The position numbers and the translations under genes were made by a program. A DNA stretch of 33,827 bases from Bacillota bacterium (GTDB lineage Bacteria > Bacillota > Clostridia > Christensenellales > Pumilibacteraceae). Under the pieces are notes generated by a model. The model ran no database searches, was not told the origin of the DNA, and saw nothing but the letters and a program-made list of their open reading frames with translations. Of this stretch, positions 5,577 through 31,387 are shown one piece after another. The number at the start of each line of letters is the position of its first letter. The first letter of the stretch is position 1. The stretch covers positions 1 through 33,827 of the forward strand of contig WQYM01000005.1 in NCBI GenBank assembly GCA_009781235.1, in the 5' to 3' direction.

Positions 5577-6707
5577 CTACTTTCTGCGGAGGATGATGAA
5601 GAACAACAGCCCTATGACCAGCAGGGCGCCGATGGCAATAAGCAGCCACGCTACGGGAGGCAGGCCGCCCGCGCCGCTGAGGTTTTCGACAATCGTGAGG
5701 CTTGTGGATAGCTTAACGCCGCCGCCAAAGGTGAACTCAACGTCGTAAACGCCCGCGCCGAGGCCCAAAAGGTAGCCGCTAGAGAGCGTGATTTCTGCGT
5801 CGTTCTCGCCGCTTACCGTGTAATCGCCTTCGCCCAAAGCCTCGCCGTTGACCGTGACGCCGGATACCCCGGACGTTACGCCGCTGAACGTGAAGGTGTA
5901 TCCGGCCGCGCTCACGACGCCCGCATCGCCTAAAAGCCCGCCGCCCTTACCAAGCGTTACCGTGCCGGACGCGCCCGTAATAAAGCTGACAGGACCCTGG
6001 GATTTGCCGTTGCCGCCCGGGTTGGGGACGGGCGTAAAGTTGTCTTTAATGTCGTCGGGGTCGATGTTGCCGTTATTCCCGCCGCCCGCAACATAGAGGC
6101 AAATCAGGCACAATAACGCCGTGTTGCCGTTCTGCGAGCCGTCCGGGTTGACCTGGCCGCCCGAGCCCGCCCAAATCAAGTCGTGCGCTTCTTTATCGCT
6201 GACCGCGTCGCAGCCGTAGTTTAAGCACTCGTGCCAGTGGCCGGCCGCATCGGACTTCCAACGGATGTCAAAGTTGTGATCTTCGGTGGTAACGTATACG
6301 CCCGCGGGAGCCGAGGCGTAGTCTACCAGCGTACCGCCGTCGCAAACCTCCGCCACGCGCACCTCAAAATAATGCGTGGAATTCGTTAGTAACCCGTCAA
6401 ACGTAATCACCGGCCGATCCGTGGACTGCATATCGTTTATGTCCGTCAATTCTATTTGGCTTAAAAACTCGTCAAACAGGATTATATCTTGGCAGGCGTA
6501 GTGGTCGAACTTGCCCGAATGCTTGTAATTGCTGACTTTGAACACATCGCCGTATTTATAGCCCAAAACACGGTTGACGAAGGTGGTTTTGCCCGTGCCT
6601 TCCGCGCCGTATATGTAGGTTGTGCGAATGGTGCGCTCGGTATTTTTGAACCTATCTCTTAAAAGGTTTTGCCGCGTCTTTTCAATCTTATCCCCCATAT
6701 TTATCAT
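5577..6707 (-). CDS. Chimeric protein: CRESS-type Rep helicase fragment joined to a wall/membrane-anchored surface protein
   Basis: 376 aa from the ATG that overlaps the upstream stop (ATGA). Residues about 4-93 resemble the superfamily 3 helicase part of CRESS-DNA virus/plasmid Rep proteins: KIEKTRQNLLRDRFKNT, Walker A YGAEGTGKT, VFKVSNYKHSGKFD and Walker B DIILFDEF followed by TDINDM. The similarity then stops abruptly. The rest is a surface protein: a HWHECLNYGC segment with paired Cys, an X2-like Ig domain (VTVNGEALGEGDYTV), one TM helix (VAWLLIAIGALLVIGLLFFI) and a short RRK tail. No LPxTG is seen (only GLPPVAW). Rep strand C, the arginine finger and the HUH nuclease are missing, so replication activity is very unlikely. 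It is either a broken gene or an expressed fusion. Confidence 0.6.
   Translation of the reverse strand: MINMGDKIEKTRQNLLRDRFKNTERTIRTTYIYGAEGTGKTTFVNRVLGYKYGDVFKVSNYKHSGKFDHYACQDIILFDEFLSQIELTDINDMQSTDRPVITFDGLLTNSTHYFEVRVAEVCDGGTLVDYASAPAGVYVTTEDHNFDIRWKSDAAGHWHECLNYGCDAVSDKEAHDLIWAGSGGQVNPDGSQNGNTALLCLICLYVAGGGNNGNIDPDDIKDNFTPVPNPGGNGKSQGPVSFITGASGTVTLGKGGGLLGDAGVVSAAGYTFTFSGVTSGVSGVTVNGEALGEGDYTVSGENDAEITLSSGYLLGLGAGVYDVEFTFGGGVKLSTSLTIVENLSGAGGLPPVAWLLIAIGALLVIGLLFFIILRRK
6431..6707 (-). mobile_element. Remnant of a CRESS-type rolling-circle Rep (helicase N-part)
   Basis: This covers the Rep-like codons only. The Walker A motif lies at about 6585-6608 and the Walker B motif about 100 bp further. 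The flanks on both sides look like parts of one surface protein in different frames. This is what an insertion of about 280 bp of plasmid or virus DNA would produce. Recognition rests on motif memory, not on a search. Confidence 0.55.
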
Positions 6708-7062
6708 TTGATATAGATTTGGTCTTTCGCGACAATCCAAACCTCGTTCACCGTGCCCCACGAGGCTTGGGCGGGGTAAGCGGTCGAGGAGGCGGGAACC
6801 GTAATTGTGCCTGTAAAACAGCTGCCGGGACTCGTAGTCGTAAAATGCCCGGAAACAATGTCCGCCGAACCGGCAATCGCTACGAACACTCCGTAATAAT
6901 CGCCCGAAAGAATGGTCAACGTGCCGCTGCTGACTCCTACCGCAACGCCGCTGGGGCCGGACGCGGAAACCGTCAAGCCGTCCAACGTTACGTCTCCGCC
7001 GAGCACGCCGATAGCGGACGTATGCAAGGTATTAATCACGGCGCCGTTTTTAAGCGTGACGT
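6704..7062 (-). pseudogene. Surface-protein fragment (beta-helix type), 5' end lost to repeats
   Basis: This open stretch of about 120 codons has a repetitive, Gly/Thr/Ser-rich pattern (LKNGAVINTL, GDVTLDGLTV, SGTLTILSGDYYGVF, GSADIVSGHF). Bacterial right-handed beta-helix surface proteins look like this. It ends in VNEVWIVAKDQIYIK-stop, and the TGA overlaps the ATG of the Rep fusion. The 5' side runs without an evident start into the GGGGACGTAG repeats (7060-7180). Together with 5577-6430 it probably made one surface protein, later disrupted upstream by repeats and in the middle by the Rep fragment. Confidence 0.5.
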
Positions 7063-7179: not shown

Positions 7180-7650
7180 ACACCCACCCCCGTAGGGGTC
7201 GCAGTCCTCTGCGACCCGCTGCCGTTGTGCGGGCGAAAAAGCCGTGCCGGGGGGAGGTGTCGGGGGGACGGGGGTGTCGATTTCGGAAAGCAAGTTTCCG
7301 AAACCCCTTCGGGGCACTTCGCGCTGTGCGCTCGTGTCACCACGCCTCGGGCCGCCGTTCGGCGGCCCTCCGTCCCCGAGCCGCCCAAACAAATTGCGCC
7401 CACAACAACAATTCAACGAGGCGGACAGCATTGGAAAGAAGTCGCTTACCGGGGTTGCCGATTCCCCGTAGGGGTCGATGCCCTCATCGACCCGCCGGAT
7501 TCCGATTCCCCCGTAGGGGTCGATCTACAGATCGACCCGCCGGAACAGTCATTTTTAATAAGGTGCGGGACGATGAGGGCATCGTCCCCTACAATAAAAA
7601 ACGCTTGGAACAAAAGAAAGAATCCCTTGAACCCGCTATCACTTATCCCT
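7180..7650. repeat. Interspersed repeat island with four GTAG-type REP hairpins and the GC-rich core
   Basis: No gene is supported here. REP-like units (GTAG followed by an imperfect hairpin ending in CGACCC) lie at 7192-7218, 7468-7493 and 7513-7538, and one in reverse at 7567-7592. Between them (about 7245-7385) is the GC-rich core that also appears in addA and addB. It contains GGGGGGAGGTGTCGGGGGGA, a GGAAAGCAAGTTTCC inverted repeat and CACTTCGCGCTGTGCGCTCG. The long open frames on both strands are consequences of GC-rich repeats. Confidence 0.8.
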
Positions 7651-11342: not shown

Positions 11343-11400
11343 ATTGTCAGGGGGACGGTGGTGTTGACAATATTGTCACTACCACCGTCCCCCTGACAAT
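11343..11400. repeat. 58-bp palindrome at the 3' end of the transposase gene
   Basis: Two 29-bp arms beginning ATTGTCAGGGGGACGGTGGT and ending in the reverse complement, with two mismatches. It overlaps the last base of the transposase stop codon. It is almost identical to the perfect palindrome at 12202-12259 on the other side of the gene. Confidence 0.95.
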
Positions 11401-12152
11401 TATTCTCTAAGCATGTTTCTTAGCTTTTCCCTGCTGACCCCAAGTAACACGGCGATGTCCCTAATGCTTGCGCCGCTTCTGTCTTTCAACTCCTCGACAA
11501 GCTTTCTTACCTGATTGACGTTCATGTTTCTTCCCGGAGTAATCTTGTAATCCTTGTTAAGCTCTAAAAAAACTTTCTCACAGTCTTCGTACTCTTTATC
11601 ATCGTGCTCAAGCCAACTTGTATCGGTTCTCTCCCCCATAATCGCCGTTATATTTTCAGGAGCAATATCATAAAAGATTGCTGCTTCGTCAAAATCGACA
11701 ATTCCCGTCCTTCTTAAATAGTTCGAGTAACTCGAAAACGGATAGTCCTCCGCTTTCTTAACCATTCCGGCTTTCAACGGATTATTCTGTATGTATGCCA
11801 TGCAATAAACCAACTGTCGTTCGCTTCGAATCATCTCACTCTTAAACCTATCTCTAAAAACGTACCCAACTCTGTTATTGATTCTATTGTAGTATCTCGC
11901 ATAATCCGCGTTCACGCGCTTAAAATACAAGGCCAATTCCTGCGCGTCAACAACGCTCAGTAAAATATGCGCGTGGTTTCCCATGACGCAAAACGCAAGT
12001 ATCTTTGCGGGATAATGAATCTTATTCTCTCGCAAGCAAGTCAAATAAAACCCCTTGCAGTGGTCATCGGGAAAAACAAATTCTTTCCCAATCCCCTGCA
12101 CCATCACGTGATAGTATTTTCCGTCTAAATCTTTTCTCGCTATCCTTGGCAT
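11400..12152 (-). CDS. REP-associated tyrosine transposase (RAYT, Y1_Tnp/IS200-like)
   Basis: This 250-aa single-strand transposase carries the HUH motif in GNHAHILL (H60, H62) and a catalytic Tyr in YIQNNPLKAG (Y120). The family N-terminus MPRIARKDLDGKYYHVMVQG and GYVFRDRFKSEMI are also present. Such enzymes nick and join one DNA strand at hairpin ends. Residues about 195-250 form a helix-turn-helix-like end (ASIRDIAVLLGVSREKLRNML). Two 58-bp palindromes bracket the gene, and related palindromes occur elsewhere in the window. This makes it a candidate mobiliser of the local REP-type repeats. The ATG lies 6 nt after a -10 box and has no Shine-Dalgarno site, so the mRNA is probably leaderless. 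Confidence 0.92.
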   Translation of the reverse strand: MPRIARKDLDGKYYHVMVQGIGKEFVFPDDHCKGFYLTCLRENKIHYPAKILAFCVMGNHAHILLSVVDAQELALYFKRVNADYARYYNRINNRVGYVFRDRFKSEMIRSERQLVYCMAYIQNNPLKAGMVKKAEDYPFSSYSNYLRRTGIVDFDEAAIFYDIAPENITAIMGERTDTSWLEHDDKEYEDCEKVFLELNKDYKITPGRNMNVNQVRKLVEELKDRSGASIRDIAVLLGVSREKLRNMLRE

Positions 12153-12158
12153 ATCGAC

Positions 12159-12187
12159 ATAATATCACAATTTATTCGGTCTGTCAA
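12159..12187 (-). promoter_or_regulatory. Transposase promoter, leaderless arrangement
   Basis: -35 TTGACA (12182-12187), 17-bp spacer, -10 TATTAT (12159-12164), then GTCGAT and the ATG. The expected +1 coincides with the A of ATG. No Shine-Dalgarno site is present. Confidence 0.75.
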
Positions 12188-12201
12188 CTATTTTTTGCAA
12201 T

Positions 12202-12259
12202 ATTGTCAGGGGGACGGTGGTAGTGACAATATTGTCACTACCACCGTCCCCCTGACAAT
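12202..12259. repeat. Perfect 58-bp palindrome between the transposase and the BspA-like gene
   Basis: Two exact 29-bp arms starting ATTGTCAGGGGGACGGTGGT. It lies 5 bp after the stop codon of the BspA-like gene (minus strand) and upstream of the transposase promoter. It could form a cruciform or a strong RNA hairpin. No U-tract follows on the minus strand, so a dedicated terminator role is doubtful. Confidence 0.97.
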
Positions 12260-12264
12260 AATTT

Positions 12265-17822: not shown

Positions 17823-20800
17823 TTACATTTCAATAAACTCGCCGCCGGAAACGGCGAAAACGCTTTTGCGGGCGACGCGCTTTTTAAGAATCCGTCCGGC
17901 TGCCAAAGCGTAAAGCCCGATTTGCCTACGATAGGAAGCCATGAATTCTTCGGCGAGTTTGCCCGTTTTATAGTCGACAATCTCCACCATACCGTCCGCG
18001 TCCTCTATAAGCAGGTCGATAACGCCTTGCAGCAGTACGCCGTTTTCCATGCAATAGATAAACGGCAGCTCGCGGTAAAATTTCCGCCTACTCACGCGCT
18101 CCGCTATTTTTTCAAGCGCGGTATTGGCGGTGTTTTTTTGCAAAAGCCGCGCAAAATCGGGGTAGTTTTTTGAGAAGCCGTCGAAATTTTCGGGGAACGG
18201 CTTAGAAAAATCGGCGGTTTCTAAGAATTTGTGATAGGCGTCCCCGACATCGGTTCCGTACGCAGGTTCGGGGGGCGGGACTCGGGGCTCGGGGTTCGGG
18301 ATTCGGGGGTCGGGGCTCGGGACTCGGGGCTCGGGATTCGGGATTCGGGGGTCGGGATTCGGGGTTCGGGATATTAACTCGTCTTCTTTTAACTGACCAC
18401 TGAAAACTTCCCACTGACCACTGTCCAGGGGCTCGGGGGTCGGGATGGTTACGTTCATTCCCGTAGGGGTCGATTTACAAATCGACCCGCGGGCTGCACA
18501 CCGTGCAACCCCTACGGCTTGCCGGCTCGCGTCCCCTCCGTCGTTTTCTCGCGTCGCTTCGCTCCCCGCGCCTGTAAAAAACATGCCGCCGGCATATTTT
18601 TGCGGCTTCGCCGCACTCCGCCAGCGCATTTTTCGTTTTTCGTTTTTCGTTTCATTTGTAATTTGTTCCGGGACGCCCGATGGGTCGTTCCCTACGGAAA
18701 ATCCCCCTTCGCGCGCCAGTTGCGTTACCGTCGTCTTTACGGGCAATTGCGGGTGCGGGTACACAAAATCCGTGAACTTTCGGACGCAGGCAACAAAGTT
18801 TTCGCTCCCCTGCTTTTCCGGGGGGAGGTGTCGGGGGGACGGGGGCGTTGATTCAAAAATGCAAGATTTTTGAACCCCTGCGGGGCACTTCGCTACGCTC
18901 GTGTCACCACGCCTCGGGTCGCCGGACGGCGACCCTCCGTCCCCGGGCAGAGCCGCAACCAAGGATTCCTGATTCCCCGTAGGGCGGGGACTTGCTCCCG
19001 CCGTTGGGCTTGCTCCCGCCCCTACGGATTGCCGGCTCGCGTCCCCTCCATCGTTTTTCGTTTTTCGTTTTTCGTTTTTCGTTATATTTACCATCGCCGG
19101 GTACAGCCAGTCAAGCCAGCAGCGCGCGTCTATTCCCTCTTTGGGCTCGTAATCCTTCTTGATGCGGCTAAACAGCGCGAGATGGAATTTAGCACGCGTA
19201 CAAGCGACGTACAAAATCCGCATTTCCTCCTCGCACAGTTTTTTGCGCACCTCCAAGACCGCCCGGCGGTACAGGCTGGTTTTGACGGTTTGCCCGCCAA
19301 AAAGATCAAACCACTTAAGCACCGCGCCGAACTTTACATCCAAAATGCAGTCCCTTTTTACATCGTCGAGGTTGAAATTTTTTGAGAGGTTCGGGAGTAT
19401 TACGAACGGGAACTCGAGCCCCTTGGCGGCGTGCACCGTCATAATCCGCACCGCGTCCGCCTCTCCGCCGCCCGAAAGCTTAACCGCGCCCGCCTCCGCC
19501 GCCAAAAGTGCGGCGGCAAAGTCGCGCCCCGCCGAAAGAGCGGAGAGCCTGTCCAAAAACTTAGACAGCCCGTCCGCGGCGTTATGGGCGTCCGGAAGGC
19601 TGAAGGCATATTTAAAATAGTCGTGCTCGGCGCAAACCTTGCCTGCCAAATCCGCAAAGCTGAGTACCCGGGAAAGGTTTTCATAGCGCGCAAGGTTTGC
19701 AAACAGGGCTTGGAGTTTTTGAGAAAGTTCGGGATTCGGGGGTCGGGGGTCGGGGGTCGGGGCTCGGGGGTCGGAGCTCGGGGGTAAGGTATCAGGGCAC
19801 AAGGCACAAGGCACAGGTAATGGATAACGCATATCACCGATACCTGTGACTTGTGCCCTGATACCTATGCCCTCACTCCCATTCTTTCCGTCTTCTTTCA
19901 ACTGACAACTGACAACTGAAAACTGACAACTGTCTCCGGGATTCGGGACGGTTGCGCACATTCCCGTAGGGGTCGAAAGTCCATCCTGCGACCCGCTGCC
20001 GTTGTACGAGGAAAGTGCCGTGCCGGGGGGAGGGGTTGTCACGGGGACATAGTACTTGACAACCCTAACTTTTCCGGGGGGAGGTGTCGGGGGGACGGGG
20101 ACGTCGATTTCGGAAAGCAAGTTTCCGAAACCCCTTCGGGGCACTTCGCGCTGTGCGCTCGTGTCGCCGTAAACCCGTCCCCGGGCAGAGCCGTAACCAC
20201 CACGTCTCGCGTCGCCGTGCGGCGGCCCTCCGTCCCCGGGCAGAGCCGTGCCTGAGCATTCCCGATTCCCCGTAGGGCGGGGACTTGCCCCCGCCGTAAA
20301 GCACGCCACGTCCCCGGGCAAAGCCGTAACCTCACCATCCGCCCCTACGCCCTGACTCCTAACCAAAAATTCCCTCCGACATTCCTCATTCCTAATTTCT
20401 AATTCCTCACTTTCCTGTCCACTGAAAACTTCCCACTGACCACTGACCCCCGTAGGGGTCGATTTACAAATCGACCCGCCGTCCCCGGGCAGAGCCGTAA
20501 TCAAGGATTCCCAATCCCCCGTAGAGGTCGGGTCGCCGGACGGCGACCCTCCGTCCCCCTGCTGTGCCGTAACCGTACAATATTTTTCACACGCCTCAAA
20601 AAACGGCCAATCGCCGCCATCCGGTTGGGCATCCGCCCACAGGCGAATTTGAGCCAATTCCCCGTCGGAAAAATAGCCGCCCAACGGAGACTTTAACACG
20701 GAGACAAGCGCGATATCGTCGCGGCGGTTGTCGATCAGCCGCAGGTAATTGATCAGCCCCCGGATCGCCGGGTTTTCCGCGCCGTCCGCGCTTTTTTGCA

Positions 20801-23207
20801 TCGTTACGGGAACGCCCGCGCGCCGCAGCTTTTCGCTCAAAACCCCGGCAAACTTCCCCATCGAGCGCAGCAGCACCGCGATGTCGCCGAATTCCGCCGC
20901 CCGTTCCGCGCCGTCCTCGGCGATAAACCGCTTTTTAAGCGACAAAATGTGCGCCGTCACCGCATCGGCCTCGGCAGCTTCGGCGGAGGTGTCCGCATCG
21001 GCATCGGGGAATACGTGGTTTTTTACGCTGTACGGGGCTCGGGGGTCGGGCGTCGGGGTTCGGGGTTCGGGACGAGGGAAATTAGGAATTAGGAATGAGG
21101 AGTGAGGAACGGTGGAGGGATTGGGTGTGTTCATTCCCGTAGGGGGCGATGTCCTCGCTGGCCCGCCGGTTGCCAAGTCCCCCGCCAGCGCTGCAAGGCC
21201 TCTCTGCTCCCCGCCTACCGTTGTGCGGGCGCTCATTGCCGTGCCGGGGGGAGGTGTCAGGGGGACGGGGGTGTTGATGCCGAAAGGCAAGCTTTCGCCC
21301 CCCCTACGGGGCACTTCGCGCTGCGCGCTCGTGTCACCACGCCTCGGGTCGCCGTTCGACGACCCTCCGTCCCCGGGCAGAGCCGCAGCCACGGAGTCCC
21401 TCCGACATTCCTCACTCCTCACTCCTAACTCCTCATTCTTCCGACATTCCTCACTCCTCACTCCTAACTCCTCATTCTTCCGACATTCCTCACTCCTCAC
21501 TCCTAACTCCTCATTTCCCACAAGCCGGCACACCACCGGCTCGACGCCCAGCGCGCCCAAGCCCGTCTCGTTAAAGCAAGCCGTGCCCGCATAATCGACG
21601 CCGCCAAACTCGCGGGTCATCGCATCACTAAACACGCGGTCGCAAAAGCGCAATATCCCGCTGTCGCTGCGAAAATTTGCGTTTAAGCGGATTACGAACT
21701 TTTCGTCCTCATAACCCGCAAATATCCCCGGGTCGGAAAGCCGAAAGCCGTAAATGGACTGCTTGACGTCGCCCACGTAAAACCTTTTTGCCGCAATGCG
21801 GGAAAAAATTGCGTCCTGCAAGGGGTTGACGTCCTGAAACTCGTCCACCATCAGCCACCGGAACCTTGCGCCGATTTCCGCAGCTGCATCGGGGTTGCAC
21901 AAAATGCGGTACGCCGCGCGCTCAATGTCGTTAAAATCGCACCGGCTTTTGCGGCGCTTTTTTGCAGCAAAAATTTTTGCGGCGCTTTTAGCAAGCTCGA
22001 CCAAAAGCGCTGTATGCCCCGCCGCAAGCGCAGGGTCGGCGTACGACAGCGCCTCGTCGCGCTCCGCGCAAAAATCCTTGTACGCGCCCCGCAACTTTTT
22101 ATAGCGCTCGTAAAGCGCGGCCTGCGCATCGGACGCGGGTTTAATGACCGGGAGCCTTTTAAGCTCGCCCGCATCGGCAGCAACCTCGTCGTAAAAAACC
22201 GCGACAGAAGCGGCGCAAGACACAAAGCCTGCGTGCTCGCAAGTCGTTTTTAACTCTGCCGCACGCCGTAAAAACCCCCCAAGCAGGCTTTTATAATTCT
22301 CGGAAAGCGCCGCGATATGCCCGGCATGGCCTTGCGTCGCCGCAGCCGATTTTTCAAACCACGCGTCGGGGTCGGGGTGAATGGCGGAGAATTCGTATAT
22401 CCTTTTTACGATAGCCGCCATCCGTTTGTCGTTTCGGCGCGGCGAAAGGATTTCAAAAAGCTCCAAAAAATCGCCTTGGGTCCGGGGTTCGGAGCTCGGG
22501 GCCCGGGGTTCGGGATTCGGGGTTCGGGATATTAACTCGTCTTCTTTTAACTGTCCACTGTCCACCGTCCACTGTCCACTGTCTTGCGCCGCTTCGGCAA
22601 TCGCCTCGTCTACGGAAAGGTTTAGCAGTGCGTCCGACTCGGCCTCGTCCAACACCTCGAACGCGGGGTCGATGTCGTCGGCATAATAAAAATATTCGCG
22701 CGCGATAGAGGCGCAAAACGCGTCTATCGTGGAAATCTGCGCCGTCGGAAGCTGCCCGATGGCACGGGAAGCCCAAGTGGGGGGGCGGGGGTTGGGGATC
22801 GGGGATCGGGGCTCTGTGGTTGGGTATAAGGTATCAGGGCACAAGGCACAAGGCACAGGTAATTGATTTTGCATATCACCGATACCTGTGCCTTGTGCCT
22901 TGATACCTATGCCTTTTTCGGAAGTCGGGATTCGGGACATAAATCCATCTTCTTTCAATTGTCCACCGCCCACTGTCCACTGTCCACTAAGCTGCTGAAG
23001 CAGCTTAGTGCGCATATCGGCAGCCGCGGCTTTGGTGAACGTGCAGACTACCATGGAAGAAAGCTCCTCCCCTGCCGTCAAAAGCCTGAGGATGCGCTGA
23101 ATCATCACGGTCGTTTTACCGCTGCCGGCAGAGGCGGAAACTAAAATTTCGTCGCAGTCGCTTAAGATGGCCGCACGCTGTGCGGGAGTGAATCGGTCTA
23201 AATCCAT
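17823..23207 (-). CDS. addA: ATP-dependent helicase/nuclease subunit A with in-frame repeat insertions
   Basis: 1794 aa against about 1200-1250 in the family. AddAB is the RecBCD-type enzyme of Bacillota: it unwinds and trims double-strand breaks and makes 3' tails for RecA at Chi-like sites. Intact UvrD-type motifs: Q motif FTPAQRAAI, Walker A SASAGSGKTT (24-33), IDAFC, DEFQD near 455, GDVKQSIYGFR, LNANFRSD, HAAKGLEF near 1258 and YVACTRAK. The C-terminal nuclease has GVIDLLIE and DYKTGK (D1745). Six insertions made of heptamers, REPs and GC-rich cores (22772-22985, 22477-22583, 21034-21516, 19728-20575, 18813-19092, 18257-18655) lie between motifs and stay in frame. Without them the length is near normal. 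It starts 2 bp after addB, with AAAGAGGAC as ribosome-binding site. Confidence 0.93.
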   Translation of the reverse strand: MDLDRFTPAQRAAILSDCDEILVSASAGSGKTTVMIQRILRLLTAGEELSSMVVCTFTKAAAADMRTKLLQQLSGQWTVGGGQLKEDGFMSRIPTSEKGIGIKAQGTGIGDMQNQLPVPCALCPDTLYPTTEPRSPIPNPRPPTWASRAIGQLPTAQISTIDAFCASIAREYFYYADDIDPAFEVLDEAESDALLNLSVDEAIAEAAQDSGQWTVDSGQLKEDELISRTPNPEPRAPSSEPRTQGDFLELFEILSPRRNDKRMAAIVKRIYEFSAIHPDPDAWFEKSAAATQGHAGHIAALSENYKSLLGGFLRRAAELKTTCEHAGFVSCAASVAVFYDEVAADAGELKRLPVIKPASDAQAALYERYKKLRGAYKDFCAERDEALSYADPALAAGHTALLVELAKSAAKIFAAKKRRKSRCDFNDIERAAYRILCNPDAAAEIGARFRWLMVDEFQDVNPLQDAIFSRIAAKRFYVGDVKQSIYGFRLSDPGIFAGYEDEKFVIRLNANFRSDSGILRFCDRVFSDAMTREFGGVDYAGTACFNETGLGALGVEPVVCRLVGNEELGVRSEECRKNEELGVRSEECRKNEELGVRSEECRRDSVAAALPGDGGSSNGDPRRGDTSAQREVPRRGGESLPFGINTPVPLTPPPGTAMSARTTVGGEQRGLAALAGDLATGGPARTSPPTGMNTPNPSTVPHSSFLIPNFPRPEPRTPTPDPRAPYSVKNHVFPDADADTSAEAAEADAVTAHILSLKKRFIAEDGAERAAEFGDIAVLLRSMGKFAGVLSEKLRRAGVPVTMQKSADGAENPAIRGLINYLRLIDNRRDDIALVSVLKSPLGGYFSDGELAQIRLWADAQPDGGDWPFFEACEKYCTVTAQQGDGGSPSGDPTSTGDWESLITALPGDGGSICKSTPTGVSGQWEVFSGQESEELEIRNEECRREFLVRSQGVGADGEVTALPGDVACFTAGASPRPTGNRECSGTALPGDGGPPHGDARRGGYGSARGRVYGDTSAQREVPRRGFGNLLSEIDVPVPPTPPPGKVRVVKYYVPVTTPPPGTALSSYNGSGSQDGLSTPTGMCATVPNPGDSCQFSVVSCQLKEDGKNGSEGIGIRAQVTGIGDMRYPLPVPCALCPDTLPPSSDPRAPTPDPRPPNPELSQKLQALFANLARYENLSRVLSFADLAGKVCAEHDYFKYAFSLPDAHNAADGLSKFLDRLSALSAGRDFAAALLAAEAGAVKLSGGGEADAVRIMTVHAAKGLEFPFVILPNLSKNFNLDDVKRDCILDVKFGAVLKWFDLFGGQTVKTSLYRRAVLEVRKKLCEEEMRILYVACTRAKFHLALFSRIKKDYEPKEGIDARCWLDWLYPAMVNITKNEKRKTKNDGGDASRQSVGAGASPTAGASPRPTGNQESLVAALPGDGGSPSGDPRRGDTSVAKCPAGVQKSCIFESTPPSPRHLPPEKQGSENFVACVRKFTDFVYPHPQLPVKTTVTQLAREGGFSVGNDPSGVPEQITNETKNEKRKMRWRSAAKPQKYAGGMFFTGAGSEATRENDGGDASRQAVGVARCAARGSICKSTPTGMNVTIPTPEPLDSGQWEVFSGQLKEDELISRTPNPDPRIPNPEPRVPSPDPRIPNPEPRVPPPEPAYGTDVGDAYHKFLETADFSKPFPENFDGFSKNYPDFARLLQKNTANTALEKIAERVSRRKFYRELPFIYCMENGVLLQGVIDLLIEDADGMVEIVDYKTGKLAEEFMASYRRQIGLYALAAGRILKKRVARKSVFAVSGGEFIEM
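18257..18655. repeat. addA insertion 6: CTCGGGG/ATTCGGG heptamers, CACTGAC heptamers, REPs, TTTTTCG array
   Basis: GGGGCTC/GGGATTC/GGGGGTC heptamers (about 18265-18375) are read as PNPEPR and PSPDPR repeats. CCACTGAC-type units follow (18395-18425). Then a REP with GTAG (18463-18488) and an inverted REP (18491-18515) occur. A TTTTTCG array ends the block near 18627-18655. It lies just upstream of the nuclease domain of AddA. Short stretches in the middle may be native. Confidence 0.8.
18813..19092. repeat. addA insertion 5: GC-rich core, REP pair, TTTTTCG array
   Basis: The core begins CCGGGGGGAGGTGTCGGGGG and ends GTCCCCGGGCAGAGCCG. A REP pair with GTAGGGCGGGGAC follows (18976-19024). A TTTTTCG heptamer array (19049-19083) abuts native codons for VNI. 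It is read as PSPRHLPPEK, a different frame from the same core in insertion 3. Confidence 0.85.
19728..20575. repeat. addA insertion 4 (about 850 bp, largest)
   Basis: Contains GGGGGTC heptamers (19728-19785), the GGCACAA inverted pair (19788-19866), AACTGAC heptamers (19898-19931), REPs, a GGGGACATAGTACTTGAC unit (20036-20062), the GC-rich core and further REPs (20271, 20449, 20519). About 280 codons are read without a stop. Native AddA sequence (FFEACEKY on one side, LSQKLQALFANLARYENL on the other) continues on both flanks. Confidence 0.85.
19788..19866. repeat. GGCACAA heptamers as inverted pair, copy 1 (in addA)
   Basis: GGTATCAGGGCACAAGGCAC leads to three GGCACAA units. An inverted arm ends in CTTGTGCCCTGATACC. 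A second, nearly identical copy of 79 bp lies at 22829-22907, also in addA. Confidence 0.9.
21034..21516. repeat. addA insertion 3: composite element with 39-bp x3 end
   Basis: On the plus strand: GGGTTCG heptamers, GAATTAG/GAGTGAG heptamers, a REP-like unit (21137), the GC-rich core and three copies of a 39-bp unit (21394-21512) that contains the inverted heptamer. The 39-bp unit is read as NEELGVRSEECRK. The two ends carry the same GAGTGAG heptamer in opposite orientation. Confidence 0.88.
22477..22583. repeat. addA insertion 2: GGGGTTC and ACTGTCC heptamer arrays
   Basis: Roughly 107 bp. GGGGTTC/GGAGCTC/GGGATTC units are followed by a constant linker (ATATTAACTCGTCTTC) and then CCACTGT units. 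The same linker and array order occurs in insertion 6 (18365-18425). Confidence 0.85.
22772..22985. repeat. addA insertion 1 with GGCACAA inverted pair copy 2 and ACTGTCC array
   Basis: About 214 bp between native LLQQL and RAIGQLPTAQ. It includes the GGCACAA inverted pair (22829-22907) and CCACTGT heptamers (22965-22987). Its edge touches a perfect 26-bp inverted repeat (22985-23010). Confidence 0.85.
22985..23010. repeat. 26-bp inverted repeat at the edge of addA insertion 1
   Basis: CACTAAGCTGCT and AGCAGCTTAGTG arms flank GA. It encodes native-looking TKLLQQL. The heptamer array starts at its end. Confidence 0.8.
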
Positions 23208-23209
23208 GA

Positions 23210-26200
23210 TTAGTCCTCTTTAGAAAAAATCTCTTCCCGCCCTACCTTTGCATACTTGCGAACCCTGCCTTCCCCGTCCGCGCCAAAGCCGCACATCGCG
23301 CCAAAGCTACAGTAATCGCACACACCCTCGGCGGGGCTTGGCGCAATGTAACCCCCGCACATCTCCTCTAAAGCCTGCTGCGCCACCCGCACGGCGTATT
23401 CCGTCAGCCCGCCAAGCTCCCCCGTGCCCATGCCATACTCCGACTTTGCCATCGGAATAACGCCGTCCGCACCGGGCTTAACATTGCGCTTCGCCTCGAT
23501 GACCGGGCTCTTATACCCGGGCTCGATCAAGCGGCGGTCTGCGGCCGCCAAAAGCTCCCCGGAGTCATTATACACCCCGCATAGGCTGCGCGGCGGCTCA
23601 CCCGCCTCGATTAGCGGCTTTGAGAGCGGAAAGTAAAACATGCCGGCCCCTTGATAGCCGTTTTCCTCCAGCACCTTGGCGTACAGCGGAAGCTGGAGCG
23701 CGCGCCCGTAGTAGAGCTCTGTAGCCGAAAACTTGGGGAGCTTGCCGGTTTTATAATCGATAACGCGCGCAAACCCCCCAAAGGTATCGACGCGGTCAAT
23801 CTTGCCGCGCAGATAAACCGGGGAGGGGCGGGATTCGGGTCGGGGAGAATTAGGAATTAGGAGTGAGGAGTGAGGAACGGTGGAGAGATTGGGTGTGTTC
23901 ATTCCCGTAGGGGTCGATGTCCTCGCTGGCCCGCCGGTTGCCAAGTCCCCCGTAGGGGGCGCAAGTCCTCTCTGCAGCCCGCTGCCGTTGTGCGGTGGCT
24001 CTTGCCGTGCCGGGGGGAGGTGTCGGGGGGACGGGGACGTTGATTCAAAAAGGCAAGCTTTTTGAACCTCCTGCGGAGGCACTCCGCTGCGCTCCGTGTC
24101 ACCGTACCCGTCCCCGGGCAGAGCCGCAGCCACGGAATCCCTCCGACGTTCCTCACTCCTCACTCCTAACTCCTCATTCTTCCGACATTCCTCACTCCTA
24201 ATTCCTAACTCCTCACTCTTCCGACATTCCTCACTCCTCACTCCTAACTCCTCACTTTCCTGACCCCTAGCCCCTAAAAACGCCACCGTTTTTAGGTCGT
24301 TGCCGCGCGCGTGGCCGAACCGCAGCTCTAGACCCAACGGTTTAAACGCGCCCGCCGTGTACGATTCCGCGATGCGCCCGGCAAGGCGCGCGGCCTCGTC
24401 TACCGCGCGCGCCAAGAGGCGCTTGTTTTTTTCCAGCAGCGCGCCGAATTCTTCTTTAGCAATCGAGCCGGCAATCGCCCTCATGCGGTTTTCGGCGTCC
24501 TTAAAGCCGTCTAAAAAGCAGGCTTCGACAAAACGTTCCGCCGCCCGGTGCAAAAAGCTGCCGATGTCGGTAGGCCTGATTTCGCCCGTGTCGCGCTCTT
24601 TTAGCCGCAGCCCCCCGGCGGCAAAGCACCGGTATGGGCAGGCCAAATATTCCTCGAGCCGCGTGGCCGAAACGGTATTATCGCGAAAATAGAGCAAGGG
24701 AGTCCGGGGCTCGGGGCTCGGGGGTCGGGATTCGGGACGAGGAAAATTAGGAATTAGTAGTGAGGAGTGAGGAATAGCGGAGGGATTGGGCATGTTGTTT
24801 CCCGTAGGGGTCGGAGCCCGGCAGTTCGACCCGCTGCCGTTGTGCGGTAACTCTTGCCTTGCCGGGGGGAGGTGTCGGGGGGACGGGGGTGTTGGTTCAA
24901 AAAGGCAAGCTTTTTGAACCTCCTGCGGAGGCACTTCGCGCTGTGCGCTCGTGTCACCACGCCTCGGGCCGCCGCTTAGCGGCTCTCCGTCCCCGGGCAG
25001 AGCCGTAACCGCAGGACTTCGATTCTCCGCCAACGGCGATGCCCTCATCGCCCCGCCGTCCCCCTGCTGTGACGTAACCAATTTACAAAGCTCCGCCGTC
25101 ATCGGCAAGCCCCTGCCGCCTGCCCGCATGTCCGACAGCGCGCCGAGCAAAAGCTCCGCCGCGTTTGAAAGGGTGGAGATTTCGGCCGCCATTTCATTCA
25201 TTTTGGCCGCGTCGTTATGTTCCACCGCGTTGCGGAACGAAAGCCCGTCCGCTAAGCTCCGCCGCGTTTTTTCGACGGAATTGTGTACGACGCTTTTTGC
25301 GCCGCGCGTAACTGCGGACGCCAAATCCGAAATCCGGCTGTCCCCCGCAAGCGAGTACGCCAAAAAAAGCCGGTCGGCGGACGCTAAAACGCGCACCGCC
25401 TCGCACCGGGCGGCGCGAGCCAGCGCATCCGAATCCGGCCCGGCAGCCTTTCCCGCCGCCGAAAGAACGGCGTTATCCGCGTCGGAAAAAAGCCCCCCGG
25501 CTTCCCGGGCTTCAGGCAGAACGCCCTCGCAAAAATCGACGGCGAACACCTCTTTAAACCTCCCCGCGCGGAACGTTTCCGCGCCGCCCACCACTACCGC
25601 GTCCGCCGTTTCGTTGACGAGCGAAATGCCGGTCGCGCCCACACCCTCGGAGAAGAGGGAGAAGAGGGAATGAGGAGTGAGAAGTGAGGGGTGAGGAACG
25701 GCGGATGGGGAATAGGGGATGGGGGATGGGAATACAAATCCGTCTTCTTTTAACTGATCATTGACCACTGACCCCTGACCACTGACCCCCGCCAGCGCTG
25801 CAAGGCCTCTCTGCAGCCCGCTGCCGTTGTGTGAGAAAACTGCCGTGCCGGGGGGGAGGTGTCGGGGGGACAGGGACGTTGATTCAAAAAGGCAAGCTTT
25901 TTGAACCTCCTGCGGAGACACTTCGCTGCGCTCCGTGTCACCGTACCCGTCCCCGGGCAGAGCCGTAACCTCACCATCCGCCGCTACACCCTGATTCCTA
26001 ACCCAAAAATCCCTCCGACATTCCTCACTCCTCACTCCTAACTCTTCATTCTTCCGACATTCCTCACTCCTAATTCCTAACTCTTCATTCTTCCGACATT
26101 CCTCACTCCTCACTCCTAACTCCTCACTCACCTCCCCCCTAACCCCTGAAAGCTGACCCCTGTCCACTGACTCCTGGCCCCTGAAAACCGAAGTTAAAAA

Positions 26201-27580
26201 CTCCGCGGCCTCCAAGAGCCCGTCGTAAATTTGCCCCAAATCCGCGCCCGCGATTTCCGAGAGTTCCGCCGTTTTCTCTTTTGCACCGCATAAGGTAAAT
26301 ACGCCGCGCAAAAAATCACGGAACGCCTCGCCCGTTTTGGCGGACGCGAAAAGCTTGGCGAATTCGGCCAAGAACCCAACGAGCGAGGCGCGCACATTCT
26401 CGGCGGTTTTGGATTCGGGACTCTGGATTCGGGACTCTGACAAATGTGACAAATGGGGACGGATCCATTTGTCATTTTGACAAATGGATCCGTCCCCATT
26501 TGTCACTGGCCACTGACCACTGTCCCCCGCAAACTCCTCCAAAAACCCCTTGTAATTAACGCCCCGGCTCAATACGTACTCCTCAAAAATATCTGCGGCA
26601 CGCTTGTCGATGCCGGAATAATAGTTTTTTGACAATGCAATCATGTCTTGGCGGCGAAAGCGCCCGGCCGCCGAAACGCAAAGCTCTAAAAACCGGAACA
26701 GCTCGGTATCGCGCAAGTTAAGCTTGCGGTCGATGAAAAACGGGATATCAAATTCGGTTAAAATCCGCTCGATCGGCGCGTAATCGGCGGGGGGCGCCAG
26801 GATGCAAAAATCCCGGAACCGTGCGCCCTCTATCACGCCGCGCCGGATGCGCTTTGCCGTCGCTTTGACGCGGTCAGAAATCTCGGCCGCCTCAAAAAAC
26901 TCCATCTCGCCGAATGCATACGTCAGGCTTTCGACGTCGAAAAAGGTATAGGAGGCGGCTTTATCTTCAAAAATCGCCAAAACGTCGCGCTCTAACGCGG
27001 TAAACCGGTCGAAACCCGCGACATAAAAATGCGTGCACGAGAGGTCGTCGTAGGCAATATCGCGTGCAAGCAGCCGCATCCGCCCGGCCAAATCGACGAA
27101 TTTGTTTTCCGTTTCGGCCAAAAACCGCGTGTAGACGCGTGCGATGTCGGCCAGCTTTAAGCCTGCCGCGCCGCCTTTGCCGACAAAATCGGACGGCGCC
27201 AAGCCCGCGTTTGCCGCGACCGAGATTGTTTCGTACATTTTAGCGGCAAAGCCCGGAAGGCGCGCGCTGCTTTTAAAAACGCGGAAATCCTTTTTTACCT
27301 CGTCTACGATGCCGCGCACCAGCATCACCGCGCCGCCCGCCGATAAAAACCCGGGGTCGCGGCGCACAAATTTTTGAAAAAGCCGGTTAAACGTCAGCAC
27401 CTCGACGTCAAACGCGCCGGTTCCCCTTGTAAACAAAAATCGCTCCATGTAAATGGAGCATTTATCCGGGACGACAACGTAATGTTTCACGGCCAAATCG
27501 ACCGTGCGCGCGCATAAGCAATCGCGCACGGCCAAAAATGACGCGTAAAAGTCAGTAAAGGTTTCGACCCGGATTCCCAC
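23210..27580 (-). CDS. addB: ATP-dependent helicase/nuclease subunit B with in-frame repeat insertions
   Basis: About 1456 aa against roughly 1150-1170 in the family. AddB partners AddA in break resection; it carries a nuclease and an Fe-S cluster. Cluster cysteines are present: C981 (ACPYRC) and C1421-x2-C1424-x5-C1430 (VCDYCSFGAMC). The nuclease motif is RGKIDRV...DYKTGK. The N-terminus lacks the usual GRSGSGKT Walker A (VETFTDFYASFLAVRDCL in its place), while VVVPDKCSIYMERFLF is conserved. Four insertions (26405-26527, 25645-26190, 24695-25078, 23820-24285) stay in frame. I place the start at GTG 27580, because a promoter ends 6 nt upstream of it; an in-frame ATG at 27598 lies inside that promoter. 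Confidence 0.9.
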   Translation of the reverse strand: MGIRVETFTDFYASFLAVRDCLCARTVDLAVKHYVVVPDKCSIYMERFLFTRGTGAFDVEVLTFNRLFQKFVRRDPGFLSAGGAVMLVRGIVDEVKKDFRVFKSSARLPGFAAKMYETISVAANAGLAPSDFVGKGGAAGLKLADIARVYTRFLAETENKFVDLAGRMRLLARDIAYDDLSCTHFYVAGFDRFTALERDVLAIFEDKAASYTFFDVESLTYAFGEMEFFEAAEISDRVKATAKRIRRGVIEGARFRDFCILAPPADYAPIERILTEFDIPFFIDRKLNLRDTELFRFLELCVSAAGRFRRQDMIALSKNYYSGIDKRAADIFEEYVLSRGVNYKGFLEEFAGDSGQWPVTNGDGSICQNDKWIRPHLSHLSESRIQSPESKTAENVRASLVGFLAEFAKLFASAKTGEAFRDFLRGVFTLCGAKEKTAELSEIAGADLGQIYDGLLEAAEFLTSVFRGQESVDRGQLSGVRGEVSEELGVRSEECRKNEELGIRSEECRKNEELGVRSEECRRDFWVRNQGVAADGEVTALPGDGYGDTERSEVSPQEVQKACLFESTSLSPRHLPPGTAVFSHNGSGLQRGLAALAGVSGQGSVVNDQLKEDGFVFPSPIPYSPSAVPHPSLLTPHSLFSLFSEGVGATGISLVNETADAVVVGGAETFRAGRFKEVFAVDFCEGVLPEAREAGGLFSDADNAVLSAAGKAAGPDSDALARAARCEAVRVLASADRLFLAYSLAGDSRISDLASAVTRGAKSVVHNSVEKTRRSLADGLSFRNAVEHNDAAKMNEMAAEISTLSNAAELLLGALSDMRAGGRGLPMTAELCKLVTSQQGDGGAMRASPLAENRSPAVTALPGDGEPLSGGPRRGDTSAQREVPPQEVQKACLFEPTPPSPRHLPPARQELPHNGSGSNCRAPTPTGNNMPNPSAIPHSSLLIPNFPRPESRPPSPEPRTPLLYFRDNTVSATRLEEYLACPYRCFAAGGLRLKERDTGEIRPTDIGSFLHRAAERFVEACFLDGFKDAENRMRAIAGSIAKEEFGALLEKNKRLLARAVDEAARLAGRIAESYTAGAFKPLGLELRFGHARGNDLKTVAFLGARGQESEELGVRSEECRKSEELGIRSEECRKNEELGVRSEERRRDSVAAALPGDGYGDTERSGVPPQEVQKACLFESTSPSPRHLPPARQEPPHNGSGLQRGLAPPTGDLATGGPARTSTPTGMNTPNLSTVPHSSLLIPNSPRPESRPSPVYLRGKIDRVDTFGGFARVIDYKTGKLPKFSATELYYGRALQLPLYAKVLEENGYQGAGMFYFPLSKPLIEAGEPPRSLCGVYNDSGELLAAADRRLIEPGYKSPVIEAKRNVKPGADGVIPMAKSEYGMGTGELGGLTEYAVRVAQQALEEMCGGYIAPSPAEGVCDYCSFGAMCGFGADGEGRVRKYAKVGREEIFSKED
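23820..24285. repeat. addB insertion D: composite element with 39-bp x3 end
   Basis: Same order as addA insertion 3: GATTCGGG heptamers, GAATTAG/GAGTGAG array, GTTCATTCCCGTAGGGG REP, GC-rich core with TTCAAAAAGGCAAGCTTTTT, then three 39-bp units (24141-24255) with the inverted heptamer. It lies between native codons for LKTVAFLGA and VYLRGKIDRV. Confidence 0.88.
24695..25078. repeat. addB insertion C: composite element without 39-bp units
   Basis: GGGGCTC heptamers and the AATTAG/GTGAGGA array are followed by a REP-like unit and the GC-rich core. The right heptamer trimer is missing. Instead the block ends in a GATGCCCTCATCGCCCCGCC REP half and CCGTCCCCCTGCTGTGACG, close to native CKL. Confidence 0.85.
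25645..26190. repeat. addB insertion B: composite element with 39-bp x3 end and CCCCTGA-type heptamers
   Basis: Left end with GAGTGAG/GAAGTGA heptamers, a CACTGACC array (25760-25795), the GC-rich core, three 39-bp units (26008-26125), then CCCCTGA/CACTGACTC units. About 180 codons are open. Native sequence flanks it (SEGVGATGISLVNE and GLLEAAEFLTSVF). Confidence 0.85.
26405..26527. repeat. addB insertion A carrying a perfect 59-bp GGGGACGG palindrome
   Basis: ATTCGGGACTCT heptamer-like units precede the palindrome at 26447-26505 (28-bp arms beginning TGACAAATGGGGACGGATCC, centre TTT). CACTGACC/CACTGTCC heptamers follow. The palindrome has the same design as that at 33313-33371. Confidence 0.9.
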
Positions 27581-27586
27581 ACCGTA

Positions 27587-27615
27587 AGTATACGGCATTT
27601 GAAACGATTTTGCAA
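27587..27615 (-). promoter_or_regulatory. addB promoter, leaderless arrangement with GTG
   Basis: -35 TTGCAA (27610-27615), spacer 17 bp, -10 TATACT (27587-27592), then TACGGT and GTG. The spacing is identical to the transposase, BspA-like and lysA promoters. Confidence 0.65.
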
Positions 27616-29644: not shown

Positions 29645-29858
29645 AACGAAAAATGAAAAATGAAAAATGAAAAACGAGGGATAAGTGTTTGAGGGTTCAA
29701 GATATTCTTTCTTTTGTTCCCGCCAGCGTCGCACGGTGTGCGACCCGCCGGAACCAACACGGCTTATTACGATTGGATTTGCGGACGCTCATGCTTTGCG
29801 GCTTCCCTTTCCCGTCCGACGTTTTTCGTTTTTCGTTTTTCGTTATTCGCTATTCGTT
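29645..29858. repeat. Inverted heptamer element (ATGAAAA/ACGAAAA) between lysA and the protease
   Basis: The left array (29645-29677) has four units of ATGAAAA/ACGAAAA. The right array (29821-29858) has TTTTTCG and TTATTCG units and supplies the lysA stop codon. The core has GATAAGTGTTTGAGGGTTC, then CTTTCTTTTGTTCC, then a REP-like GTCGCACGGTGTGCGAC and the sequence shared with 27811-27955. Confidence 0.85.
29716..29824. repeat. Dispersed repeat copy (pair with 27811-27955)
   Basis: Shared segments are GTTCCCGCCAGCGTCGCACG, CCCGCCGGAACC, and TTGGATTTGCGGACGCTCAT with GCTTTGCGGCTTC. Both copies end in a TTTTTCG array. The 27.8-kb copy has extra REP sequence in the middle. Confidence 0.85.
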
Positions 29859-31387
29859 AAATCCTCGTCGCGTGCGGCAACATCCGCATACCCCTGCGGC
29901 CGCACAATAACCTGCGCTTTGCCGTGCCCGCACAGCACCACCGGCGGGACGGGGTTGCGGTTGTAATTGGACGCCATCGAAAAGTTGTACGCACCGGTGG
30001 AGAGGACGGCCAAGATGTCGCCGGAGGCTACGGACGCGGGGAGAGCGACTTTCTCAATCAGCGTATCGGTTTCGCAGCACTTGCCGGCAACGGTGAAGTT
30101 TTCCGTTGCACTCTCAAGCGCCTTATTCGCTACAATTGCGTCGTACTTTGCGTCGTAAAGGGTGTAGCGCGGGTTTTCGAACAGGCCGCCGTCCACCGCG
30201 ACGTAGTTTTTGAGACCCGGGATTTTCTTGACCGCGCCGACGGTGTAGAGCGTGGTTCCCGCCTCCCCTACCAAAGACCGGCCGGGCTCGATGATGAGCT
30301 TGGGGGCGCCGATTGACTTTTGCGCGATGCACGCGTTTAGCTTATCCGCAATCGCGCCGACGAATTCGGATAAGGGGGGCGGCTCGTCGCCGGGCAGGTA
30401 GCGTATCGCGTAGCCGCCGCCCATGTTGAGCTCGCGGACATCCCCGCCGATTTCCTTGCGGATTACGGCGATTAAATCTGTCATCCGGTCAACCGCCGCC
30501 AAAAACGGCTCGATTTCGAATATTTGAGAGCCGATGTGGCAATGGATGCCTAAAAAATCGAGGCAAGGGTGCGAGAGGATTTCTTTGACGGCGGGGATGA
30601 CGTCCTCCGGCAAAAACCCGAATTTAGAATCTGCGCGCGCGGTTTGAATAAAGTGGTGGGTGTGCGCGTCCACCTCGGGGTTGATGCGGATAAGAACGCC
30701 TTGACGGCGGGGAGAATGACGAATGACGAGTGACGAGTGACGAATTTCGGATGGGATTGCAGCGGAGTTTCCCGTAGGGGGCAACCCATTGGGCACCCCG
30801 CCGATACAAGCATCCGTCGTTTTTTGCGGGGCGCCCAATGGGTCGCCCCCTACGAGTTCGTTATTATCTCCATCCGTATTTGTAATTTGTAATTTATAAT
30901 TTGTAATTTCTTCTGAATCCGCTGACCCCTGACCCCTGACCCCTGACCCCTGACCCCTCGCCACCTCGGCCAGTGTCTTGATTTCATCAAAATGGTCGAT
31001 AACAATCGCGTGCACGCCCGCGTTGGCGCCGGCGGCAAGCTCCGCGCGCGATTTATTGTTGCCGTGAAGGTATAACCGCTGCGGGTCAAAGCCCGCGGCC
31101 AAAGCGGTGTACAGTTCACCGCCCGAGGCGACGTCGGCGCCTAAACCTAAAGGAGCGATGATTTGATATATCGCCTTGCAACCGAAAGCCTTGGACGCAA
31201 AGCACACCAAATTGTCCGGGTATTTTTTATCAAGCGTGCTTTTCATCTCCAAAGCGGCGGATTCGATGCGTCCCCGCTCCATCACATACAGCGGCGTCCC
31301 GAATTCCTTTGCCAAATCTTCCGCATCGCACCCGCCAAGCTCAAGATGCCCGTTTTTATTTATCGTAAGCGTACTTCGTAAGTTCAT
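29843..31387 (-). CDS. lysA: Diaminopimelate decarboxylase with repeat insertion
   Basis: LysA decarboxylates meso-diaminopimelate to L-lysine using PLP. 514 aa against about 420-440. Present are the PLP lysine in CFASKAFG (K66), the HCHIGSQI segment, NMGGGYAIRY, the EPGRSLVGEAG phosphate-binding loop, CCETDTL (substrate Cys at the dimer interface) and GAYNFSMASNYN. An insertion of about 85 residues (30704-30962) lies in the barrel between EIKTLAEVAR and RQGVLIRINPEVD, in frame. The ATG follows a promoter by 6 nt with no Shine-Dalgarno site. The last codons (LTNSE) come from a heptamer array. Confidence 0.95.
   Translation of the reverse strand: MNLRSTLTINKNGHLELGGCDAEDLAKEFGTPLYVMERGRIESAALEMKSTLDKKYPDNLVCFASKAFGCKAIYQIIAPLGLGADVASGGELYTALAAGFDPQRLYLHGNNKSRAELAAGANAGVHAIVIDHFDEIKTLAEVARGQGSGVRGQGSADSEEITNYKLQITNTDGDNNELVGGDPLGAPQKTTDACIGGVPNGLPPTGNSAAIPSEIRHSSLVIRHSPRRQGVLIRINPEVDAHTHHFIQTARADSKFGFLPEDVIPAVKEILSHPCLDFLGIHCHIGSQIFEIEPFLAAVDRMTDLIAVIRKEIGGDVRELNMGGGYAIRYLPGDEPPPLSEFVGAIADKLNACIAQKSIGAPKLIIEPGRSLVGEAGTTLYTVGAVKKIPGLKNYVAVDGGLFENPRYTLYDAKYDAIVANKALESATENFTVAGKCCETDTLIEKVALPASVASGDILAVLSTGAYNFSMASNYNRNPVPPVVLCGHGKAQVIVRPQGYADVAARDEDLTNSE
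30704..30962. repeat. lysA insertion: GACGAGT, REP pair, TTTGTAA and CCCCTGA arrays
   Basis: GACGAAT/GACGAGT heptamers (30715-30750), a GTAGGGGGCAACCCATTGGG REP and its inverse (30773-30855), TTTGTAA units (30880-30910) and five tandem GACCCCT units (30923-30958). Read as GQGSGVRGQGS, TNYKLQITN and SEIRHSSLVIRHS within LysA. Confidence 0.88.

Follow-up and report, generated by a model that had tools for sequence, protein, structure and literature searches.

A RAYT gene bracketed by two palindromes most probably forms a TIRtron, in which a Y1 RAYT with its cognate ends would move or copy pairs of short half-sites in trans and so disperse them over the genome; we put the probability of this reading at roughly 0.7. 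The locus was found in the window, that is, the whole analysed stretch of 33,827 nucleotides. A wider proposal, for which we judge the odds to be a little short of even, is that this is a TIR-type RAYT system whose mobile hairpin pairs dozens of proteins have taken up in frame, many housekeeping enzymes among them. The elements would then be protein-coding palindromes like those of Rickettsia, except that a plausible dedicated enzyme is encoded in the same genome and that several pairs of enzyme and repeat are diverging in parallel.

The gene, of TIRYT type, lies on the minus strand (11400..12152; ORF and profile matches) and encodes a Y1 HUH transposase of 250 aa. It matches Pfam Y1_Tnp (E 4e-9) and NCBIfam REP_Tyr_transpos (E 3e-21, 75.7 bits, slightly below the cut-off of 80). 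An earlier note on this DNA had described both catalytic motifs as intact, and the alignment bears this out: N59-H60-A61-H62 (HUH motif, codons 60-62, 11967-11975, minus strand) and Y120-I-Q-N-N-P (Tyr120 at 11793-11795, minus strand) are complete, and H60, H62, Y120, N124 and P125 are invariant across 15 aligned relatives. The C-terminus (residues ~216-249) is HTH-like, with weak matches, under the Pfam cut-offs, that recur in several paralogs. TnpAREP (PDB 4er8, E 2.5e-4) was the sole convincing match by sequence to a solved relative. No relative was found in the viral contigs searched. Elsewhere in the window, the gene order rimP-nusA-ylxR-ylxQ-infB is present, which in part underlies the description of the genome as Clostridia-like, and an ORF at 5577-6761 (minus strand), with a weak N-terminal RNA_helicase (PF00910) match and a secreted-looking C-terminal part, is possibly a chimera.

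The palindrome 3' of the gene (11343..11400) has arms that are 93% complementary, and its last base is shared with the RAYT stop codon; the one on the 5' side (12201..12260) has perfect 30-bp arms (100% complementary). As the same note had stated, the two 58-bp copies are nearly identical, with mismatches at two positions only, and an inverted repeat of 62 nt (95%) encloses the gene. The predicted single-stranded DNA folds reach -28.8 kcal/mol for 11343-11400 and -35.8 kcal/mol for 12201-12260, far beyond chance (z of -10.6 and -15.5 compared to shuffles; equally good shuffles, 0/200). A genome half-site scan resolved each palindrome into two convergent 27-bp half-sites separated by 2 bp: TTGTCAGGGGGACGGTGGTGTTGACAA (11344..11370, plus strand) and TTGTCAGGGGGACGGTGGTAGTGACAA (11373..11399, minus strand) on the 3' side, and TTGTCAGGGGGACGGTGGTAGTGACAA twice (12203..12229, plus strand; 12232..12258, minus strand) on the 5' side. 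The half-site reads TTGTCA-N-GGGGACG-...-TGACAA, that is, a 6-bp stem, TTGTCA...TGACAA, around a 15-nt loop with the GGGGACG core. Taken by itself, the 27-nt half-site gives a weak DNA fold (-2.8 kcal/mol, z -1.3), and ssDNA folding indicates a different favoured fold for the half-site type found at another RAYT of this genome, C129 (see below). Because the 3'-side palindrome is a mosaic of GTGTT and GTAGT variants, the half-site is suggested as a unit of exchange.

Strong hairpins in an intergenic position, as at the window locus, could also be read as host transcription terminators or protein-binding sites. We consider this very improbable: no T-run follows either palindrome, many copies lie within reading frames, where a terminator would harm, and the palindromes are nearly absent from relatives.

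The genome survey combined a pattern search with individually retrieved stretches. The pattern TGTCASGGGGACGGTGGT, allowing at most 2 mismatches, gave 89 matches in the genome, part of which belong to a related repeat family of ~125 bp, and the reversed control gave 0. Across the 73 remaining family genomes examined, the same pattern gave 0 to 4 matches per genome. Half-site neighbours less than 150 bp apart were convergent in 40 cases, in the same direction in 15 and divergent in 1, and the convergent pairs elsewhere in the genome were mostly spaced by 2 to 93 bp. The half-sites thus behave like REPINs, in that they form convergent short-repeat pairs, in many copies, that are tied to a RAYT, and many of these short copies stand without a RAYT gene. 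A binning artefact as their source was ruled out because they sit on dozens of contigs within ordinary genes.

Members of the ~125-bp family start with GGGGACGG on one side and have its inverse on the opposite side. The ends of this family were noted in the window at 7257-7283, 18828-18854, 20084-20104, 21254-21280, 24020-24040, 24872-24903 and 25859-25879, and several copies are in frame in addA and addB, encoding ...LPGDGG...SPRHLPPG.... The REP-like hairpins that had been remarked on near the RAYT gene do exist, but they belong to this separate family, which shares the GGGGACGG core, lies mostly in the addA/addB frames and probably represents a further group of in-gene elements. Low-complexity in-frame inserts (ELGVRSEECRKNEELG, SGVRGQGSG, NYKLQITN and DPRPPNPEPR types) were also seen at 17823-27598 and 29843-31387 of the window; their hosts, in the window and in stretches L037, L085 and L080, are addA, addB, a lysA-like gene, thrC, trmFO and hemW. 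This genome accommodates many repeat insertions in frame.

Four RAYTs of one clade are present in the genome, namely the window RAYT (C5) and those of loci C44, C79 and C129, together with a decayed copy, C26. The other three are 62 to 71% identical to the window RAYT. Three of the four (C5, C44 and C129), and the decayed C26, are bounded by their own half-site variant: the C44 ends are 28-bp TTGTCAGGGGGACGGTGGTATTTGACAA pairs, those of C26 are 29-bp variants, and those of C129 are CTGTCACGGGGTCAGGCTTACTGACAG, with 38 genome matches at no more than 3 mismatches. For C79, GGGGTCAC repeats are present and clear hairpin ends were not found. The inner half-sites are 785 to 811 bp apart around C5, C44, C26 and C129, and the split of the RAYT tree into C5+C44 and C79+C129 parallels that between the cores GGGGACGG and GGGGTCA. 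In C26 (17247-18222) the first ~53 codons are kept, unrelated sequence follows, and half-site pairs stand at both ends. These observations support the palindromes as the putative cognate ends of the window RAYT, and they agree with the earlier note in placing a REP-like system here. That note had also proposed that palindromes occurring genome-wide without relation to RAYT genes would speak against the link; they are indeed genome-wide, but they are essentially confined to the genome that carries these RAYTs, and the flanking variant differs from one RAYT paralog to the next.

It could alternatively be supposed that the palindromes came first, spread by another enzyme or by hairpin-driven replication slippage, and that RAYTs were inserted into them later, as ISPpu9 is in Pseudomonas REPs. 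Half-site pairs are widespread without a RAYT, and cleavage of half-sites by the RAYT is something we infer; nevertheless, every resolved RAYT has pairs of its own variant at both ends with a similar spacing, and a matching geometry is found around related RAYTs in another phylum, which makes this order of events unlikely. We give slightly less credit still to the window unit being an autonomous IS200/IS605-like IS of recent arrival with the palindromes as its ends. A Y1 HUH transposase between near-identical ends, patchy among relatives, would suit such an element, but the paralogs are diverged and have an end variant each, the many short copies lack the gene, and the Tyr motif is Y--NP compared to the Y--Q of TnpAIS200 (PMC6006769). 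A search of the genome for a second near-identical copy of the window RAYT gave none, the closest being 71% identical, and the suggestion that the unit is active or recently mobile is therefore unsupported as regards movement of the RAYT gene.

The patchy distribution just mentioned amounts to 4 of 74 genomes of the family. The nearest counterparts of the window RAYT outside the family, 54 to 56% identical, are in Elusimicrobiota MAGs, and the TIRtron reading draws on their ends, which match those of the window RAYT in geometry and differ in their stems; one Elusimicrobiota genome with such a RAYT had 46 half-site matches. In the tree, the RAYTs of this genome, of another genome of the family (G071) and of Elusimicrobiota formed a clade with support 97/97, and the RAYT from a same-genus genome was placed in a different clade. 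Horizontal transfer of the RAYT appears likely. Stem positions were paired in 97% of cells, compared to 86% after shuffling (0/500), for 12 half-sites from different lineages, a sample that is small, hand-picked and in part related; in this sample both sides had changed at 3 of the 6 pairs. More distant relatives have GGGGTCAGGCTT or GGGGACAC ends, which are of the published TIRYT kind (PMC3733652). At the rpsB loci of two same-genus genomes no RAYT was found upstream, and the sequence there was too divergent for a base-exact empty site.

Inside genes, 36 of 66 elements (~55%) lay within frames open for at least 25 codons on both sides, although antisense or spurious frames may be among them. 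Family models recognised 18 host genes in which homology surrounds the in-frame insert: thrC, mutL, a histidine kinase gene, mnmG, the genes of an ABC ATPase and an ABC-F protein, trhP, ribD, polA, a radical-SAM protein gene, murF, rnr, ylqF, an MBL hydrolase gene, rluD, hemW, a P-type ATPase gene and trmFO. Comparison with solved homologs gave clean insert positions: in MnmG the insert separates the adjacent residues 155 and 156 of 2zxh, in RluD it lies between 126 and 128 of 1v9f, and in RibD the inserts lie between 218 and 221 of 2b3z. For rluD, none of 29 other genomes of the family aligned to the insert (0/29), and the 8 that could be read at the loop were all without it (8/8); empty sites in relatives are thus at the protein level. 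Intragenic pairs of the C129 type had spacings of 0 or 2 modulo 3, never 1, and both leave the frame open. A coarse test of the elements outside genes for a frame-broken gene yielded no clear case. From these spacings and this result, we conclude that the presence of the elements in genes is, judging by sequence, a matter of tolerance and not of targeting. A preference for genes was considered and rejected, the ~55% in open frames being probably less than the coding density.

For comparison, 23 elements were sampled in an Endomicrobia genome; 6 were in any open frame, few of them in recognised genes. By eye, a half-site pair was seen there in frame in a FeoB-like gene (~1499-1554 of stretch L186), and one unpaired half-site within a RibD-like gene (~1018-1044 of L261), ribD being a host in the present genome too.

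By analogy with TnpAREP work (PMC8266576), from which hairpin recognition, nicking by Tyr120 and movement in trans are taken, the following course can be proposed. Each end of the locus is a REPIN-like convergent pair of 27-bp half-sites. Most likely, the RAYT would bind the half-site hairpin in single-stranded DNA, for instance on the lagging-strand template, nick it via Tyr120, and move or copy short pairs of half-sites in trans, in line with what has been put forward for TnpAREP and REPs. Pairs would become scattered over the chromosome, and the RAYT genes would remain single copy and diverge in step with their repeats. Those pairs that land in genes would persist only if the frame is kept and the protein tolerates the position, so that many housekeeping proteins would come to carry a repeat-encoded insert.

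The origin of in-frame palindromes in conserved genes has been in question since the Rickettsia elements were described, and it stayed open because no enzyme was linked to them. The present system offers a candidate enzyme together with its likely ends, matched pairs of paralog and repeat, and empty sites in relatives, and the question therefore becomes testable. The link of this type of enzyme to in-gene palindromes is a useful addition. In addition, a RAYT branch reported without REP-like partners gains a clear hairpin partner, the stem of which covaries across two phyla. What is new is the combination of a TIR-type RAYT, matched variants and in-gene palindromes; the kind of system is already known.

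In-frame palindromes are known in Rickettsia and, with GTAG REPs, in other species. The present elements resemble the Rickettsia palindromic elements as in-frame palindromic repeats in many unrelated conserved genes; the Rickettsia CGTC repeats, however, have no associated transposase gene, whereas the present genome encodes a candidate enzyme and has ends that match it. Canonical REPtrons and REPINs (E. coli, Pseudomonas, Stenotrophomonas) share with the locus a RAYT gene between inverted hairpin repeats, dispersed convergent pairs and one repeat variant per RAYT. The present system differs in its short stem, long G-rich loop and copy numbers of tens to ~100, and membership fails because the half-sites start with TTGTCA or CTGTCA and the GT[AG]G foot is absent. 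Membership in IS200/IS605 fails because of motif and copy number (YIQNNP in a single copy, compared to Y--Q in multiple near-identical copies). By its features, the protein can be likened to TnpAREP subclass 2.1, or Bertels group 1 (Quentin et al. 2018, PMC6006769), with Y--NP, an SS motif that follows the core, a length of ~250 aa, a C-terminal extension of weak HTH similarity and a HUH-Tyr spacing of 60. No REP-like sequences were found next to subclass 2.1 genes in that study, whereas a clear dispersed hairpin family accompanies the window RAYT; in-frame REPs are known inside subclass 2.4 tnpAREP genes (PMC6006769).

The earlier note's statement, which linked RAYTs to REP sequences in proteobacteria, proved too narrow, since the window RAYT is of the TIR-associated branch, for which several phyla are known, and the canonical GTAG foot is absent here. 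In Di Nocera et al. 2013 (PMC3733652), a TIRtron/TIRYT is a RAYT-like gene between non-GTAG terminal inverted repeats with a GGGG-containing motif; dispersed TIR families with singles, dimers and 'double palindromic' TIRs are reported, a GGGGWSAS motif is described for some TIRs only, and intragenic GTAG and CGTC REPs are reported, with intragenic TIRs not mentioned in the parts consulted. Likewise, the window protein is a RAYT-like Y1 HUH protein with HUH and Y--NP, and non-GTAG inverted repeats flank the window RAYT, the C44 RAYT and relatives. The window core GGGGACGG agrees with GGGGWSAS at 7 of 8 positions, and the cores of C129 (GGGGTCAG) and C79 (GGGGTCAC) fit it fully. Differences lie in the several RAYT-specific variants side by side, the stem covariation and the roughly half of elements in frame found here, and none of the TIRtron species described in that source (PMC3733652) is Clostridia-like. 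As far as its sequence indicates, the window locus fits the TIRtron/TIRYT arrangement and is neither a canonical REPtron of the GTAG kind nor an IS.
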